A DNA stretch of 64,000 nucleotides from Pseudomonadales bacterium. Lineage in GTDB: Bacteria > Pseudomonadota > Gammaproteobacteria > Pseudomonadales > Azotimanducaceae. The stretch is taken from positions 1-64,000 of the forward strand of contig JAFMIA010000003.1 of the NCBI GenBank assembly GCA_017854255.1. The letters are read 5' to 3'. Under the pieces are notes generated by a model. It searched no databases. It saw nothing but the letters and a program-made list of their open reading frames with translations, and had not been told where the DNA came from. Shown piece by piece: positions 45,381-64,000 of the stretch. Position numbers and translations under genes: made by a program. Position 1 is the first letter of the stretch; each line of letters opens with the position of its first letter.

Positions 45381-45710
45381 CTACTTCTTTTTCTTAGCAG
45401 CCGCTTTCTTAGGAGCGGCTTTCTTAGCAGCAGCCTTCTTAGGAGCCGCTTTCTTAGCAGCCGCCTTCTTAGGCGCGGCTTTCTTAGCAGCCGCTTTCTT
45501 AGGAGCAGCTTTCTTAGCAGCCGCTTTCTTAGGAGCAGCTTTCTTAGCAGCCGCTTTCTTCGGAGCAGCTTTCTTAGCAGCCGCTTTCTTTGGTGCTGCT
45601 TTTTTAGGCGCCGCTTTCTTAGCGACTACTTTTTTAGCAACGACTTTTTTCGCAACTGCTTTCTTAGCAGCAGGCTTTTTCTTTGCAGCAGGTTTCTTTT
45701 TTGCGACCAC
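45381..45710 (-). CDS. Histone H1-like Lys/Ala-rich repeat protein
   Basis: A 109-residue, very basic protein made of [10 protein letters not shown]-type repeats with no other domain. Such C-terminal-H1-like proteins (AlgP, PhaF tail, Hc-like proteins) bind DNA without sequence preference and may condense it. The start is a GTG at 45710 preceded by AAAGGAGTATTAACT. Seven 30-bp tandem repeats code for most of it. The repeat number is likely to vary between strains. Exact orthology is uncertain because repeats mislead alignments. Confidence 0.8.
45391..45600 (-). repeat. Seven 30-bp tandem repeats within the histone-like gene
   Basis: Units begin every 30 bp from 45391 (plus-strand core TTCTTAGCAGCCGCTTTCTT). 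They differ by a few third-position changes, and the unit keeps the reading frame (10 codons). Gain or loss of units would lengthen or shorten the protein without breaking it. Confidence 0.9.
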
Positions 45711-58075: not shown

Positions 58076-59464
58076 CTAAGAATCGATCTTTATGGCAATG
58101 AACTGTGGCTGTTTCGCCCGAATGATTCGAACGGGCACGGCAACGCCGACTGGCAGGGTCGCGATCGCGGTGTTGAATTCCGTGATGGAGTCTACCCATT
58201 GGCTGTTGATCGTGGTGATCACATCGCCAACGTTTATGTTCCCAGATTCACCTGGGCCTTGCCCGACCGCAACCACCAATACCCCTTGCGCCGCATCCAG
58301 CGCTACTTTCTCCTCCGCTGTCATCACACGAACCTCAAGTCCCAACCGGTTCTGAGTGGGTTCTGGGCTGGCCTGCCTGGACGGAAGCCCTGCATCCTGC
58401 GCATCGAGTTCACCGACCTTGACCGACAATTTTACTGACGCGCCAGCACGTTGAACGACCAGGTGCGTCTCGGAACCCGCTTTAAACCGCCCAACAACAT
58501 GCGGCAGATCGGAGGACAGATCGATCACCCGTCCACCGAACTCAATGATAATATCCCCCTCCCGGACACCCGCTGCTGCGGCTGGACTGTCGGCGAACAC
58601 CCGGGTCACGAGCGCGCCCGCCGCACGATCCAAGCCAAAAGACTCAGCCAAGTCACGATCTACTCGTTGGATTTGGACGCCCAACCAACCCCTCGACACC
58701 GAGCCTTTCTCTTTGAGTTGCGCCACCACCTCCATCGCCACGTCAATTGGAATGGCAAAAGACAATCCCATAAAGCCACCCGACCGGGTAAAAATCTGGG
58801 AATTAATCCCAACCACTTTGCCGTCTAGATTAAACAAAGGCCCACCAGAATTGCCGGGATTAATCGCAACGTCGGTCTGAATAAATGGCACGTAGTTACC
58901 GAGATCGTCTGGCAAACTCCGTCCTTTAGCACTCACAATTCCGGCTGTCACCGACAGCTCGAAACCAAAGGGTGAACCAATGGCCATGACCCATTCACCC
59001 ACTTTGAGCGATTGAGACGATCCGATCGTTACAACCGGCAAATCCACTGCATCGATTTTCAATAGCGCTAAGTCAGAAACCGGATCGGCGCCAATCAAAA
59101 CAGCTTCTCGCTCCCGGCGATCGCTCAGGGCGACAATGATTTCGGTCGCATCCTGAACCACGTGGTGATTGGTCAGCACGTACCCATCCGATGAGATCAG
59201 GAACCCGGATCCGGTTGCAGGCCGAGGCGTCCCACGCTGCTGATAGTCCCGAAAAAAGCGCCGTAGCATTTCCGGCACTTCTTCTTGATTGTTCTCCAGC
59301 AAAGCAGGATCTTGTCGAGTTGCCGTAATGTTCACAACAGCGGGCGACGCATCCGTTACCAAACTTGTGAAATCAGGCAAATTGTTTCGCGCGAGACCAT
59401 CGAGGCTGAGGGTACCCAGCAGAACAAAAAGACTGCCTAAAATAATTCTTTTCATGACGAACAC
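58076..59464 (-). CDS. mucD: Periplasmic serine protease, MucD/DegP (HtrA) family
   Basis: About 460 residues with a signal peptide (MKRIILGSLFVLLGTLSLDGLA). The trypsin-like domain has His in VLTNHHVVQDA, Asp in SDLALLKID and Ser in PGNSGGPLF. Two PDZ domains follow (VFADSPAAAAGVREGDIIIEFGG and the GPGESGNINVGDVI region). It degrades misfolded periplasmic proteins. GTG 59464 has GGAGA upstream and is preferred; ATG 59455 is next. It overlaps the rseC stop by 13 bp, as in the algU-mucABCD order. Confidence 0.95.
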   Translation of the reverse strand: MFVMKRIILGSLFVLLGTLSLDGLARNNLPDFTSLVTDASPAVVNITATRQDPALLENNQEEVPEMLRRFFRDYQQRGTPRPATGSGFLISSDGYVLTNHHVVQDATEIIVALSDRREREAVLIGADPVSDLALLKIDAVDLPVVTIGSSQSLKVGEWVMAIGSPFGFELSVTAGIVSAKGRSLPDDLGNYVPFIQTDVAINPGNSGGPLFNLDGKVVGINSQIFTRSGGFMGLSFAIPIDVAMEVVAQLKEKGSVSRGWLGVQIQRVDRDLAESFGLDRAAGALVTRVFADSPAAAAGVREGDIIIEFGGRVIDLSSDLPHVVGRFKAGSETHLVVQRAGASVKLSVKVGELDAQDAGLPSRQASPEPTQNRLGLEVRVMTAEEKVALDAAQGVLVVAVGQGPGESGNINVGDVITTINSQWVDSITEFNTAIATLPVGVAVPVRIIRAKQPQFIAIKIDS

Positions 59465-59844
59465 GACGTCTCCTCTCTGCTGCGAATATGGATTAATGAT
59501 TGCGCATAGGCCCGGCAACTCAATCGTCCGATGCCCAAACCCAAGATAGCCAGCCCAAATTGCAGCCCTTCATGCAAGCCCCAAAAATGTCCGAGCCCAG
59601 CACCGAGGAGCAGTCCCATTAAGGGCAACCCTAGAGAATTTGCCAATAACAACCCAAAGTCTAAGGCTTTGATGTCAACACCGATGGGACCTTCATTGAG
59701 GGCGGTGTCGACCGGGATGCGATGTGTTTTCGCTCGGCAGCCTGCTTTTTGACAACCGGCGCAAGCTCGCCCGCTTGCGACCTCGGCAAACCGGATATTG
59801 TTTTCATCGATAATCAGATGTGCGGGCACTGTCAACATTGACAT
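59452..59844 (-). CDS. rseC: SoxR-reducing/RseC-family membrane protein
   Basis: About 130 residues with an N-terminal Cys cluster (CAGCQKAGC) and two membrane segments (LLLANSLGLPLMGLLLGAGLGHFW and LQFGLAILGLGIGRL). This is the RseC/MucC pattern. It modulates sigma-E in some species; the exact role is unclear. The open frame runs to 59910, but ATG 59844 fits the family start (MSMLTVPAHLIIDENNIRFAEV). Confidence 0.88.
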   Translation of the reverse strand: MSMLTVPAHLIIDENNIRFAEVASGRACAGCQKAGCRAKTHRIPVDTALNEGPIGVDIKALDFGLLLANSLGLPLMGLLLGAGLGHFWGLHEGLQFGLAILGLGIGRLSCRAYAQSLIHIRSREETSCSS

Positions 59845-59906: not shown

Positions 59907-60926
59907 TCAATATAAGATTGGTTCCACAGATTCGGCAAGTCTTTGGGCCGTCGTAACGGGTAAGCCGCCAATAATCGTCACCTGGCCTTTGCTTTGACCC
60001 AACGCGCGGGTCACGATCGTTCGCCCTTCAACTTCAGTAGCAAGATTCGGTAGCCCGCGCTGGGCCTCAAGAAAGACCGAGAAGGTCACGATACCATCGC
60101 TAAAATGTAACCGATTGCCGGACTGACGCACGACCTTAAAACCGTCAGGCAACCACTTCACTTTGAAACTGGGCTTGGTGTTTTGATCAATAAAATCATC
60201 TGCTAAGCGATGGCTCACTGTTTGATCGGGATCAATCGCTGTCATCAATAATTGCGTATCCGGCATAAAATCGATGTCAGAGAACGCAAAGACCTCTTTA
60301 ACGCGACCCCGCTCGACTAAATGAGACTGAAGCAATAATCCAGTTTGGTAATCAAGCCAAAGCAGGTAACCAAATCGATCTGCATTGACCGGTTGAATAG
60401 ACAACCTGATTGCACGCCGATCGGCGATACGGTCCTCACCATGCAGCGCGGTATGATAAAAATGGCTGGACTCACTGATCAAGGCCGTAAACGATTGGCT
60501 AAAGGGCCCGAGTAGCACGTGATGCCGAAGATCACCAGGATCGTTGATATCGTGATAACAAATAATCTCATCTTGCCAGCGCCGGATATCAATCTTTTGA
60601 CCGTTAAGCTTCAGAATTGACTCTCGAACCGTGTCTCCGGAGGCATCATGAACGATCCGCATTGTGTTGAATTCTTTGCCTCGAATATAGGTAAACGTTC
60701 CAGCGTAGGTTTCCTCACTAAACGCCAAGGCCATTTTCTCTAACCAATACTCGGGGCTTGCAACGTTCAGATGTTGAGTACCGTCAGTTTTTTTATTTTC
60801 AATCTGCTCTTCAGACTTTTGAACATCAATCGCTGATGGTTCCGCCAGTGTTGAGCAGACGAAAACAGTGGTCGCAATACCCAACCCTAGATTCGACAAA
60901 AACCGATTGAAAACAAGCGTTACCAT
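59907..60926 (-). CDS. rseB: Sigma-E regulatory protein RseB (MucB)
   Basis: A 339-residue periplasmic protein: signal peptide (LGLGIATTVFVCSTLAEP), then the RseB lipoprotein-sensing domains (YWLEKMALAFSEETYAGTFTYIRGKEFNTMRIVH and the LSIQPVNADRFGYLLWLDYQTGLLLQSHLV strands). It binds RseA and blocks its cleavage until lipid or LPS stress signals arrive. It follows rseA by 18 bp. Confidence 0.94.
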   Translation of the reverse strand: MVTLVFNRFLSNLGLGIATTVFVCSTLAEPSAIDVQKSEEQIENKKTDGTQHLNVASPEYWLEKMALAFSEETYAGTFTYIRGKEFNTMRIVHDASGDTVRESILKLNGQKIDIRRWQDEIICYHDINDPGDLRHHVLLGPFSQSFTALISESSHFYHTALHGEDRIADRRAIRLSIQPVNADRFGYLLWLDYQTGLLLQSHLVERGRVKEVFAFSDIDFMPDTQLLMTAIDPDQTVSHRLADDFIDQNTKPSFKVKWLPDGFKVVRQSGNRLHFSDGIVTFSVFLEAQRGLPNLATEVEGRTIVTRALGQSKGQVTIIGGLPVTTAQRLAESVEPILY

Positions 60927-60944: not shown

Positions 60945-61553
60945 TTAATTTGAAGAAGTAGACGAAGGATAATTGACAAAGACCTGTCTGGAACCCAATT
61001 GCGATAATTCATCATGCTGCTTCAGATAAGCCCGTAACTGCGCGCGCCCGACTTCATCTAAAGCTTTTAGATCCGGATTGGCGCGCATCTCGTCAAACGC
61101 AACCTCACTTGTATCCGTTGTATTGAACGCGGCCAACGCCACGCTTTGACGCGGATCAACCGGCGCCTGAACAGCCACCTGGCTCGGCCCAAGCGTTGGC
61201 GCCGGCACTTGCAGGCTTGGCACGATAAAAGCCGCAAGCGCAACGATCAGAACAGACGCTGCAAGCCCATAGATCCAGGGACGACCCAAGGAAAACGTGT
61301 TCGTCTCAGGGACCGCAAGTCCGTCCGTCTCAGCAGCCACCTCGGCTTGAATTCGACGGAACAGCGCTTGCTGCTCTGACAGATCCACGTCAACCGCTTG
61401 CCCCCCTCGGAGCACACGCCCGATCAACTGCCAACGCTGAACGGTTTCGATCGCCATTGCTGGATCATGATCCCGAAGAAACCGACGCTCTTCGAGTGAT
61501 TCTGACTCGCCATCGATCAAGGCCGAAAGGGTTGCTTTTTCATCACCATTCAT
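60945..61553 (-). CDS. rseA: Anti-sigma-E factor RseA (MucA)
   Basis: A 202-residue anti-sigma factor. The N-terminal cytoplasmic part (LSALIDGESESLEERRFLRDHDPAMAIETVQRWQLIGRVLRG) binds sigma-E. One membrane segment (YGLAASVLIVALAAFIVPSL) follows, and then a periplasmic tail ending RQVFVNYPSSTSSN for RseB and protease recognition. The rpoE-to-rseA gap holds a 14-bp tandem repeat array. Confidence 0.94.
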   Translation of the reverse strand: MNGDEKATLSALIDGESESLEERRFLRDHDPAMAIETVQRWQLIGRVLRGGQAVDVDLSEQQALFRRIQAEVAAETDGLAVPETNTFSLGRPWIYGLAASVLIVALAAFIVPSLQVPAPTLGPSQVAVQAPVDPRQSVALAAFNTTDTSEVAFDEMRANPDLKALDEVGRAQLRAYLKQHDELSQLGSRQVFVNYPSSTSSN

Positions 61554-61586
61554 AAAAAAACCTTCATTGTCACTAATGCGCTTAGC

Positions 61587-61684
61587 GGCTCTTTTCTAAC
61601 CGCTCTTTTCTAACCGCTCTTTTCTAACCGCTCTCTTCTGTTCACTTTTTTCTGACCACGCTCTTCTGGCCACGCTCTTCTGAA
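61587..61684. repeat. Seven 14-bp tandem repeats between rpoE and rseA
   Basis: Units start every 14 bp from 61587: the first three (GGCTCTTTTCTAAC, then CGCTCTTTTCTAAC twice) are nearly identical, and four further units (core CTCTTCTG or TTTTTCTG) are diverged. On the transcribed minus strand the repeats are purine-rich (AGAAAAGAG). They lie in the untranslated gap of the rpoE-rseA mRNA. Confidence 0.9.
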
Positions 61685-61743
61685 AGCGGCCCGAACCTTA
61701 CGCGTTGTCTCCGCGTTCGTTTTCGCCGCATTTTAGATACGCG

Positions 61744-62319
61744 TTAACCCATCTGAGCGATTTTTTTCTCGATCGTTTCCCGGGCTCTGAAGATTCTTGA
61801 CCGCACGGTACCAACCGGGCAAGCCATTATTTCAGCGATTTCTTCATAACTTAACCCATCAAACTCCCGTAGCATCAGGGCCGTTCTTAAATCCTCCTGC
61901 AGATCATCCACCGCAGCTAATATGACAGACTGCAATTGATCCCGCGCCAGCAACGTTTCGGGCTGATCCTCAGCTTCTAAGACAACTGAATTCTCGGAAA
62001 ATTCCCCGTCGTTAATGTCTTTATCCGTATTCGGCGGCCGTCGAGACTTGGCAACGAGATGGTTTTTTGCCGTATTGATCGCGATTCGATAGAGCCAAGT
62101 ATAAAACTGCGCGTCCCCTCGGAAATTCGCCAGAGCCCGGTAGGCTTTGATAAAAGCCTCTTGCGTCACGTCAGCGACTTCATCCTGATCTCGAAGATAG
62201 CGTGAGACAATGCTCGCAATTCGTTGCTGGTACTTTAAAACCAACACGTCAAAGGCACGTTTGTCCCCTTGCTGGGATCTTACAACCAGCCGCTGATCAG
62301 ATTCGTGCTCAGATTTCAA
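61744..62319 (-). CDS. rpoE: RNA polymerase sigma factor RpoE (AlgU)
   Basis: A 191-residue group 4 sigma factor. Region 2 has the DVTQEAFIKAYRALANFRGDAQFYTWLYRIAINTAKN stretch; region 4 has REFDGLSYEEIAEIMACPVGTVRSRIFRARE. It directs the envelope stress response and is held by RseA. Its own promoter is visible upstream. Confidence 0.97.
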   Translation of the reverse strand: MKSEHESDQRLVVRSQQGDKRAFDVLVLKYQQRIASIVSRYLRDQDEVADVTQEAFIKAYRALANFRGDAQFYTWLYRIAINTAKNHLVAKSRRPPNTDKDINDGEFSENSVVLEAEDQPETLLARDQLQSVILAAVDDLQEDLRTALMLREFDGLSYEEIAEIMACPVGTVRSRIFRARETIEKKIAQMG

Positions 62320-62358
62320 AACAAACCCTATTCCTTACCGCGACGCTTAAGTCACTCT

Positions 62359-62385
62359 TTTGACCACGCGTTTCAATCTAGGTTC
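62359..62385 (-). promoter_or_regulatory. Predicted sigma-E autoregulatory promoter of rpoE
   Basis: On the minus strand GAACCT (62385-62380), a 16-nt spacer and TCAAA (62363-62359) match the sigma-E consensus except one base in the -35. The -10 is about 40 bp before the rpoE ATG, as expected for a sigma-E-dependent self-activating promoter. Confidence 0.65.
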
Positions 62386-62493
62386 GCGATTTACCGTATT
62401 TTACACAATCCATTGCGCGAATTGATAATATCTAGCATCCGCGGCCTGGCTGCGGCCCCACTGACTTTCCCTTCAATCAACAGGACTTTCTCA

Positions 62494-64000
62494 GTGCTCA
62501 AGCCTAAACCAGAACATTTTGACGTTATCATCATTGGCAGCGGCGCCGCCGGCATGACGTTAGCGCTGCATTTACCTGATGACTACCGCATCGCAATGCT
62601 TTGCAAAGAGGCGCCGCTTGAGGGTTCTAGCTACTACGCCCAAGGCGGTGTTGCGGCGGTGCTCGATGAGTACGATAGCATTGCCGCACACATTGACGAT
62701 ACGCTCGTTGCAGGAGACGGTCTGTGTAATCCCGATACCGTGGCCTTCGTGGTCGAGCAAAGTCCAGGCATCATCGATTGGCTCGTAACACTTGGCGTGA
62801 ACTTTGACACCCGCATTAGCAATAGTGGTCGTTCAGAGTTTCACTTAACCCAGGAAGGTGGACACACCCACCGCCGAGTAATCCACGCAGCAGATGCCAC
62901 CGGCAAAGAGATCACCGAACGACTCGCTGAGGCGCTGAGTGAACGCAAAGGCGTTGAATTCTTCACCGATCACATTGCGATTGATCTGATTACCAGTGAT
63001 CAATTGGCCGAATCGTCAAAATATTGCTGTGGCGTTCACACCTTGAACCTAAAGACCACCGAGACGCAGACCCTGTCCTGTCAAAACTTGGTCCTGGCAA
63101 CCGGTGGCGCCAGCAAAGTTTATCTGTATACCAGCAACCCTGACACGGCATCCGGAGATGGCATCGCGATGGCTTGGCGCGCGGGCTGCCGAGTCGCAAA
63201 CCTTGAGTTCAATCAATTCCACCCCACCTGTCTTTACCACCCGACCGCCAAGTCGTTTTTAATCTCAGAAGCACTTCGGGGGGAAGGCGCAAGGCTTCTA
63301 CTCCCGGACGGCACGCCTTTTATGGAGCACTTTGATCCGCGAGGGGAACTTGCGTCTCGGGACATTGTGGCCCGCGCCATCGATTTTGAAATGAAACGTT
63401 TGGGCTGTGATTTTGTGCTGCTCGACATCAGTCATAAAGAGGATGATTTGATTCGATCGCACTTTCCGAATATCTACGAGCGATGTCTTAGCCATGGCTT
63501 TGATTTAACCCAAGCACCGATTCCAATTGTGCCCGCAGCGCACTACACCTGCGGGGGCGTCGTCACCGATCTCAGCGGGCGAACCGATATTGAAAACCTC
63601 TATGCCATTGGCGAGGTCAGCTATACCGGGTTGCATGGCGCTAATAGAATGGCCAGTAACTCCTTGCTCGAATGCATGGTCTTTGGCCGCGCAGCCGCGG
63701 AATCTATCCGAAAAACGCCTAAACAAAAGCATCCGGTCAATCCCATTCCACGCTGGGATGACAGCCAGGTCTCGCGCTCTCGGGAGGACGTCATCCTCGC
63801 CCATAACTGGGAAGAGCTTCGACGACTCATGTGGGATTATGTTGGGATCGTTCGATCTGATCGAAGGCTCTTACGGGCCCAGCGACGCATCCAATTATTA
63901 CAACAAGAGATCAACGACTATTACGCGCATCACACCATCAATCGAGATTTACTTGAGCTTCGCAATCTCGCCCAGGTCGCTGAATTAATTGTTCGCTCCG
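62494..64000 (+). CDS. nadB: L-aspartate oxidase (3' end outside window)
   Basis: An open frame of 502 codons from GTG 62494 (AGGACTTTCTCA upstream) to the right edge. FAD-binding FDVIIIGSGAAGMTLALHL, SSYYAQGGVAAVL, HTHRRVIHAADATG, LATGGASKVY, NQFHPTCLYHP, LISEALRGEGARLL, FDPRGELASRDIVARAID, AAHYTCGGV and GLHGANRMASNSLLECMVFG are all NadB hallmarks. It oxidises aspartate to iminoaspartate for NAD synthesis. Only the last C-terminal part is missing. It is divergent from rpoE, as in Pseudomonas and E. coli. Confidence 0.96.
   Translation, partial: MLKPKPEHFDVIIIGSGAAGMTLALHLPDDYRIAMLCKEAPLEGSSYYAQGGVAAVLDEYDSIAAHIDDTLVAGDGLCNPDTVAFVVEQSPGIIDWLVTLGVNFDTRISNSGRSEFHLTQEGGHTHRRVIHAADATGKEITERLAEALSERKGVEFFTDHIAIDLITSDQLAESSKYCCGVHTLNLKTTETQTLSCQNLVLATGGASKVYLYTSNPDTASGDGIAMAWRAGCRVANLEFNQFHPTCLYHPTAKSFLISEALRGEGARLLLPDGTPFMEHFDPRGELASRDIVARAIDFEMKRLGCDFVLLDISHKEDDLIRSHFPNIYERCLSHGFDLTQAPIPIVPAAHYTCGGVVTDLSGRTDIENLYAIGEVSYTGLHGANRMASNSLLECMVFGRAAAESIRKTPKQKHPVNPIPRWDDSQVSRSREDVILAHNWEELRRLMWDYVGIVRSDRRLLRAQRRIQLLQQEINDYYAHHTINRDLLELRNLAQVAELIVRS

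Follow-up and report, generated by a model that had tools for sequence, protein, structure and literature searches.

The question raised by this locus is why a gene cluster that joins a sigma factor to its own anti-sigma protein should carry, between these two genes, a long untranslated stretch that is occupied by short tandem repeats. The DNA analyzed, here called the window, is a stretch of 64,000 nucleotides in which genes for an ECF sigma factor, an RseA_N protein and a MucB/RseB protein lie on the same strand, all three scoring above their Pfam cut-offs, which is the gene arrangement of a sigma-E operon. The component features, all on the minus strand, are as follows:

58076–59518, minus strand: gene for a mucD/degP-like trypsin-PDZ protease (ORF, Pfam), whose true start may lie downstream of the listed TTG.
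59907–60926, minus strand: rseB, encoding a MucB/RseB protein (ORF, Pfam).
60945–61553, minus strand: rseA, encoding an anti-sigma-E protein of 202 aa (ORF; Pfam RseA_N at 25.7 bits, cut-off 24).
61554–61743, minus strand: untranslated rpoE–rseA spacer of 190 bp, with little C in its transcript (C 0.16, G 0.32).
61561–61565, minus strand: possible rseA ribosome-binding site GAAGG, followed by seven T and then ATG, as read from the sequence.
61585–61682, minus strand: array of seven 14-bp units (TRF, exact matches, unit alignment, shuffles).
61588–61629, minus strand: three identical copies of GGTTAGAAAAGAGC within the array (exact matches).
61744–62319, minus strand: rpoE, encoding an ECF sigma factor of 191 aa with Sigma70_r2 and r4 domains, TTG start as listed (ORF, Pfam).

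On the transcript strand, the array consists of seven consecutive 14-mers with the consensus CAGAAAAGAGCGGT, to which the successive units agree at 10, 11, 10, 13, 13, 13 and 11 of 14 positions, while the 14-mers that flank the array on the outside score just 3 and 2. TRF reports an array at 61588–61639 (period 14, 3.7 copies, 97% matches, score 97) and a second stretch at 61650–61683 (period 14, score 61). The best TRF score among 2000 dinucleotide shuffles of the gap was 68, none reaching 97, and the head-to-tail arrangement at this locus is thus beyond chance. A first-pass annotation of the same DNA had placed repeats in the untranslated rpoE–rseA gap, and TRF, ORF and Pfam results bear out both the array and its flanking genes; its count of seven 14-bp units also stands, while the interval that it gave, 61587–61684, covers this array with the phase shifted by two bases. 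Three of the units had been described as almost identical, and in the phase of GGTTAGAAAAGAGC the three that start at 61588, 61602 and 61616 are fully so. A whole-genome search for GGTTAGAAAAGAGC with at most two mismatches returned 24 places, where the only perfect matches are these three array units.

The 14-bp repeat itself is incidental. The hot spot to which it belongs is real and unusual, and it is met again and again in the genus. Among 58 genomes in a search of relatives, RseA was found in 16, eleven of them belonging to the fifteen genomes of the window's genus; RpoE was found in 11 of those fifteen, and three genomes that returned neither an RseA nor an RpoE match (G010, G012 and G014) were left out. 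This yielded ten complete rpoE–rseA gaps in the genus, ranging from 36 to 589 bp. All nine complete gaps of at least 90 bp contain tandem arrays (TRF score of at least 45), a count that is partly post hoc as arrays had been noticed in the printed gaps beforehand, compared to 17 of the 163 further gaps between co-directional genes that measure 90–600 bp in the same genomes (Fisher 1.1e-8), these control gaps being derived from a simple codon-usage gene caller and mostly from G000, G003 and G001, for which most sequence was fetched. Arrays make up 41% of the bases in the rpoE–rseA spacers of the genus as against 2.4% in the control gaps. The spacers of G004 and G005, which are broken by contig ends and were kept outside the nine, also contain arrays, so that, of the 12 genomes of the genus that provide spacer sequence, 11 possess one; the gap of G013, at 36 bp below the 90-bp limit, is array-free.

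Arrays are also present elsewhere in these genomes. Large intergenic examples are found at L149 5996–6848 in G003 (420 bp of repeat) and L163 10907–11717 in G001 (340 bp of repeat), indicating that the genomes are repeat-prone beyond the rpoE–rseA gap. In the window's own genome, a co-directional gap of 861 bp beyond the window (L060 15108–15969; contig C51 of G000, approximately 79108–79969) holds a 27-bp array of 4.6 copies, and this gap is G-skewed and purine-rich on its transcript strand (skew 0.49, purine 0.70). Within the window, 45390–45671 carries a 15/30-bp array (18.8 copies of 15 bp according to TRF), which is probably coding, as its unit is a multiple of three and its minus strand, if read, gives Ala/Lys repeats resembling a histone-H1-like tail; G007 carries a similar 30-bp array (L167 1854–3193).

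The units that occupy the rpoE–rseA spacer are of many kinds. G000, G002 and G005 have GGTTAGAAAAGAGC or a near form of it in common. G003 falls with G002 and G005 by its RpoE sequence (support 83/87, which is not strong) and contains units of 13, 10 and 23 bp instead. Units of 19, 15 and 7 bp are present in G009, G006 and G008, respectively; G007 combines units of 13, 14, 7 and 8 bp, its sister G004 has a different 13-bp unit, and G001 and G011 carry related units of 9–11 bp. When units were matched against the gaps of other species, scores were at the level of shuffles except within the G000/G002/G005 set and for three scattered values of 2.0–2.5, although this measure is weak for short units (the plainly common units of G001 and G011 score only 1.2–1.3), and the verdict that units are unrelated leans also on a reading of the printed gaps. 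As far as these sequences tell, it is the place that is conserved and not the repeat, with units differing between most species, a pattern that is read as the repeated birth of arrays at one place.

The first-pass annotation had envisaged changes in copy number, and constancy is indeed not what was found among the assemblies compared, which derive from uncultured organisms with one genome per species, each of a species other than that of the window. Over 300 nt of rseA, G001 and G011 share 98% identity, yet their gaps measure 146 and 113 bp, and the 33-bp difference falls among units of 10–11 bp. Furthermore, two contig ends of the single G005 assembly cover its gap with seven and six units, respectively, counted from the same first unit, and differ by one inner unit, a difference that is either strain variation or an assembly error. 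The contigs of both G004 and G005 end inside the rpoE–rseA gap; variable repeats often cause contig breaks.

To what extent the array-bearing spacers have a lasting property was assessed across the family, where RseA_N was found in 112 of 150 genomes and 76 genomes, including 12 of the genus, were surveyed; G004, G005, G021 and G095 (2 bp in another measurement) are without a measured gap, G025 contains masked bases and G133 is without a clear start. In the composition count of 38 spacers of 60–600 bp from other genera, for which regions of up to 8 kb and G025 were skipped, all 38 show an excess of G over C on the transcript strand, as compared to 118 of 215 controls. The mean C content is 0.180 in these spacers and 0.269 in controls, and the mean purine content 0.609 as against 0.499 (p=8e-19), while T is slightly lower (0.211 versus 0.231) and G is not reduced (0.306 versus 0.275). 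The skew is the same outside arrays, where these spacers average 0.260, whereas the mean is -0.004 in terminator-free controls (n=139) and 0.019 in same-strand terminator-free controls within 8 kb downstream (n=74); given the simple gene caller, the control gaps may not be intra-operon, and C-poverty may be general to true intra-operon spacers. Arrays themselves are only mildly enriched in other genera for gaps in the 90–600 bp range (7 of 33 versus 8 of 171, p=0.004). The lasting property of the spacer is thus that of a C-poor and purine-rich RNA, which is common to array-free spacers, and the array is one way to fill it. The spacer of the window conforms to this, with A 0.35, C 0.16, G 0.32 and T 0.17 on the transcript and a largest C/G of 0.73 in any 78-nt window.

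We infer that the selective reason for this composition may be avoidance of the termination factor Rho, which the genome encodes. Rho prefers RNA that is unstructured and free of ribosomes, rich in C and poor in G, and at least 70–80 nt long (PMC6407284), and a transcribed spacer of the present length would be a natural target. A 78-nt window with more C than G occurs on the transcript strand of 13 of 46 spacers, where length-matched controls predict 36.5, and in one of nine within the genus (that of G006), while on the opposite strand all 46 contain one; such windows are therefore rare on the transcript strand only, as would be expected of spacers that evade Rho. Against this stand the 13 spacers which do contain such a window, the one of G006 among them, a terminator-like site in 11 of 49 spacers as judged by a crude scan (from a set with 40 non-genus spacers, also used for folding), and the finding that, base for base, spacers have less structure than controls, by which avoidance of structure could be the reason instead.

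According to this proposal, an untranslated spacer has expanded inside an rpoE–rseA–rseB–mucD cluster that is probably carried on one transcript, and its RNA would be held C-poor and purine-rich such that the ribosome-free stretch does not become a Rho utilisation site and RNA polymerase can proceed to rseA, rseB and mucD. Within this compositional constraint, sequence and length would be free, and minisatellite-like arrays with units of approximately 7–23 bp could arise, expand, contract and be replaced, probably through slippage. The arrays would be tolerated by-products of fast turnover that change the length of the spacer, the 14-bp array being its current occupant. The long spacer would also separate translation of rseA from that of rpoE, judging from its length relative to a median gap of 22 bp in a class-level survey (17 measured genomes), which drew 20 regions from the 23 best-scoring of 102 RseA_N genomes and is biased to typical RseA; three of the 20 are without a readable rseA start, one of the 17 (L185, 114 bp) was probably misread, and with only two gaps reaching 60 bp the survey is silent on composition outside the family. 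To this reading, in which Rho-loading sequence is kept out of the spacer and rseA, rseB and mucD thereby stay transcribed, with the arrays as by-products, we assign a probability of roughly 0.45.

Several other properties of the spacer RNA were considered. An enrichment of stop codons was weak (504 versus 479.8, z 1.94; z 2.43 in the genus) and was dropped, Hfq-type ARN runs were fewer than in shuffles (11 versus 21.4), and GGA motifs were slightly fewer (205 versus 225.9). Shine–Dalgarno-like motifs are depleted in spacers (ratio 0.69, z -4.5), which lends at most weak support to an avoidance of stray initiation, since controls are mildly depleted also (0.87, z -2.8).

It could alternatively be argued that the spacer is a mutational hot spot under no selection, in which a long unconstrained stretch in repeat-prone genomes yields a G-skewed nascent RNA that favors R-loops and slippage. 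Purine-rich low-complexity sequence slips easily, and arrays in other intergenic gaps of the genus become more frequent with length (12 of 61 co-directional gaps of 400–2000 bp). Length alone is, however, insufficient, given the excess of arrays over co-directional gaps of matching size, and simple deamination of C would raise T, which is instead slightly lower; moreover, the skew is equal outside arrays and in other genera. We consider this explanation somewhat unlikely.

The first-pass annotation raised the idea of a functional role. In the version considered here, the number of units would govern how strongly rseA is translated compared with rpoE, by way of distance, standby sites or the stability of the mRNA, and heritable variation in sigma-E activity would come from slippage. 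Copy number does vary between close relatives, and probably within one population, and in 11 of the 12 genomes the arrays keep to one location, a gene pair that is sensitive to dosage. Suggestive in this respect is the spacer of G003 (L063), where, in the last ~75 bp before rseA (spacer positions 332–404), the 23-bp repeat carries copies of the ribosome site and ATG of rseA; as read from the sequence, this gives a run of three mini-ORFs of eight codons ahead of rseA, in which every stop codon overlaps the start codon that follows. This has to be set against the lack of a conserved unit, period or fold, in consequence of which length would be what matters, if anything, against G013, which does without an array, and against a conserved composition that spacers of other genera possess without any array. 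The array may tune the RpoE:RseA ratio, but we regard an evolvable tuning of this kind as unlikely. The same low standing applies to a combined version, in which unrelated Rho-proof arrays would regrow at a fixed site because spacer length adjusts the amount of anti-sigma per sigma factor, such that sensitivity to envelope stress evolves fast by slippage with both proteins untouched.

Avoidance of RNA structure, by which C-poverty would keep the rseA leader open to ribosomes independently of Rho, draws on the per-base folding energy, which is -0.225 kcal/mol per nt in spacers (cut to their last 200 nt) versus -0.298 in terminator-free controls (the first 120 of 139; p=1.8e-5), a difference that follows from composition. 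Compared with their own shuffles, spacers are not less folded (mean z -0.44; controls -0.47), by which measure no conserved fold is seen, and the spacer of the window folds slightly better than its shuffles (z -1.84). In addition, there is no reduction of G, a base that can pair with C as well as with U. On balance, this reading appears improbable, though it is a live rival to Rho avoidance. Least credible by far is that the spacer acts as an rseA promoter, conceals a small gene or encodes a conserved regulatory RNA: the array-free 145-bp spacers of three g8 genomes do align at 81–92%, and some spacers are therefore conserved over short times (shuffled 72–75%, the comparison needed as free gaps inflate identity and global alignment of spacers measures little), but the gap of the window has no Rfam match, a crude scan of 61400–62560 returned no promoter-like site on the rseA strand, stops are present in every frame of all six spacers examined (6, 2 and 2 in the three frames of the window gap), and sister species possess different spacer sequences.

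If the Rho-avoidance reading is right, what selection acts on in this untranslated operon spacer would be its base composition and not its sequence, and the family would offer a natural series of sequence-unrelated 'anti-rut' spacers for studying how Rho is excluded from ribosome-free RNA. It would also mark the ratio of sigma to anti-sigma as adjustable by slippage within a population. No paper on arrays in the rpoE–rseA spacer was found among titles and abstract beginnings of the open-licence literature (the best 10 of 46 matches listed for algU/mucA intergenic regions and the best 12 of 125 for VNTRs and operon spacer length), and a query that combined anti-sigma factors with intergenic tandem repeats returned no paper there.

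Phase-variable intergenic VNTRs, for example the promoter tandem repeats of Mycobacterium tuberculosis (PMC12817950), are one related kind of locus. As in the locus described here, these consist of short non-genic units whose copy number varies between close relatives; those described are located in promoters, whereas the present array separates two co-directional genes, has a unit that gives way to another from one sister species to the next, and is known from sequence alone. Rho utilisation sites (PMC6407284) resemble the spacer in being ribosome-free RNA of 80 nt or more and are opposite to it in composition, the spacer being C-poor and G-rich, with a C/G per 78 nt of at most 0.73 in that of the window. 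A further close counterpart is the gammaproteobacterial rpoE–rseA–rseB(–mucD) sigma-E operon, of which the gene order and domains are alike here, while the spacer differs in its length, i.e., 190 bp as compared to a median of 126 bp in the family (70 measured genomes) and the class-level value given above, and in the arrays that it contains.
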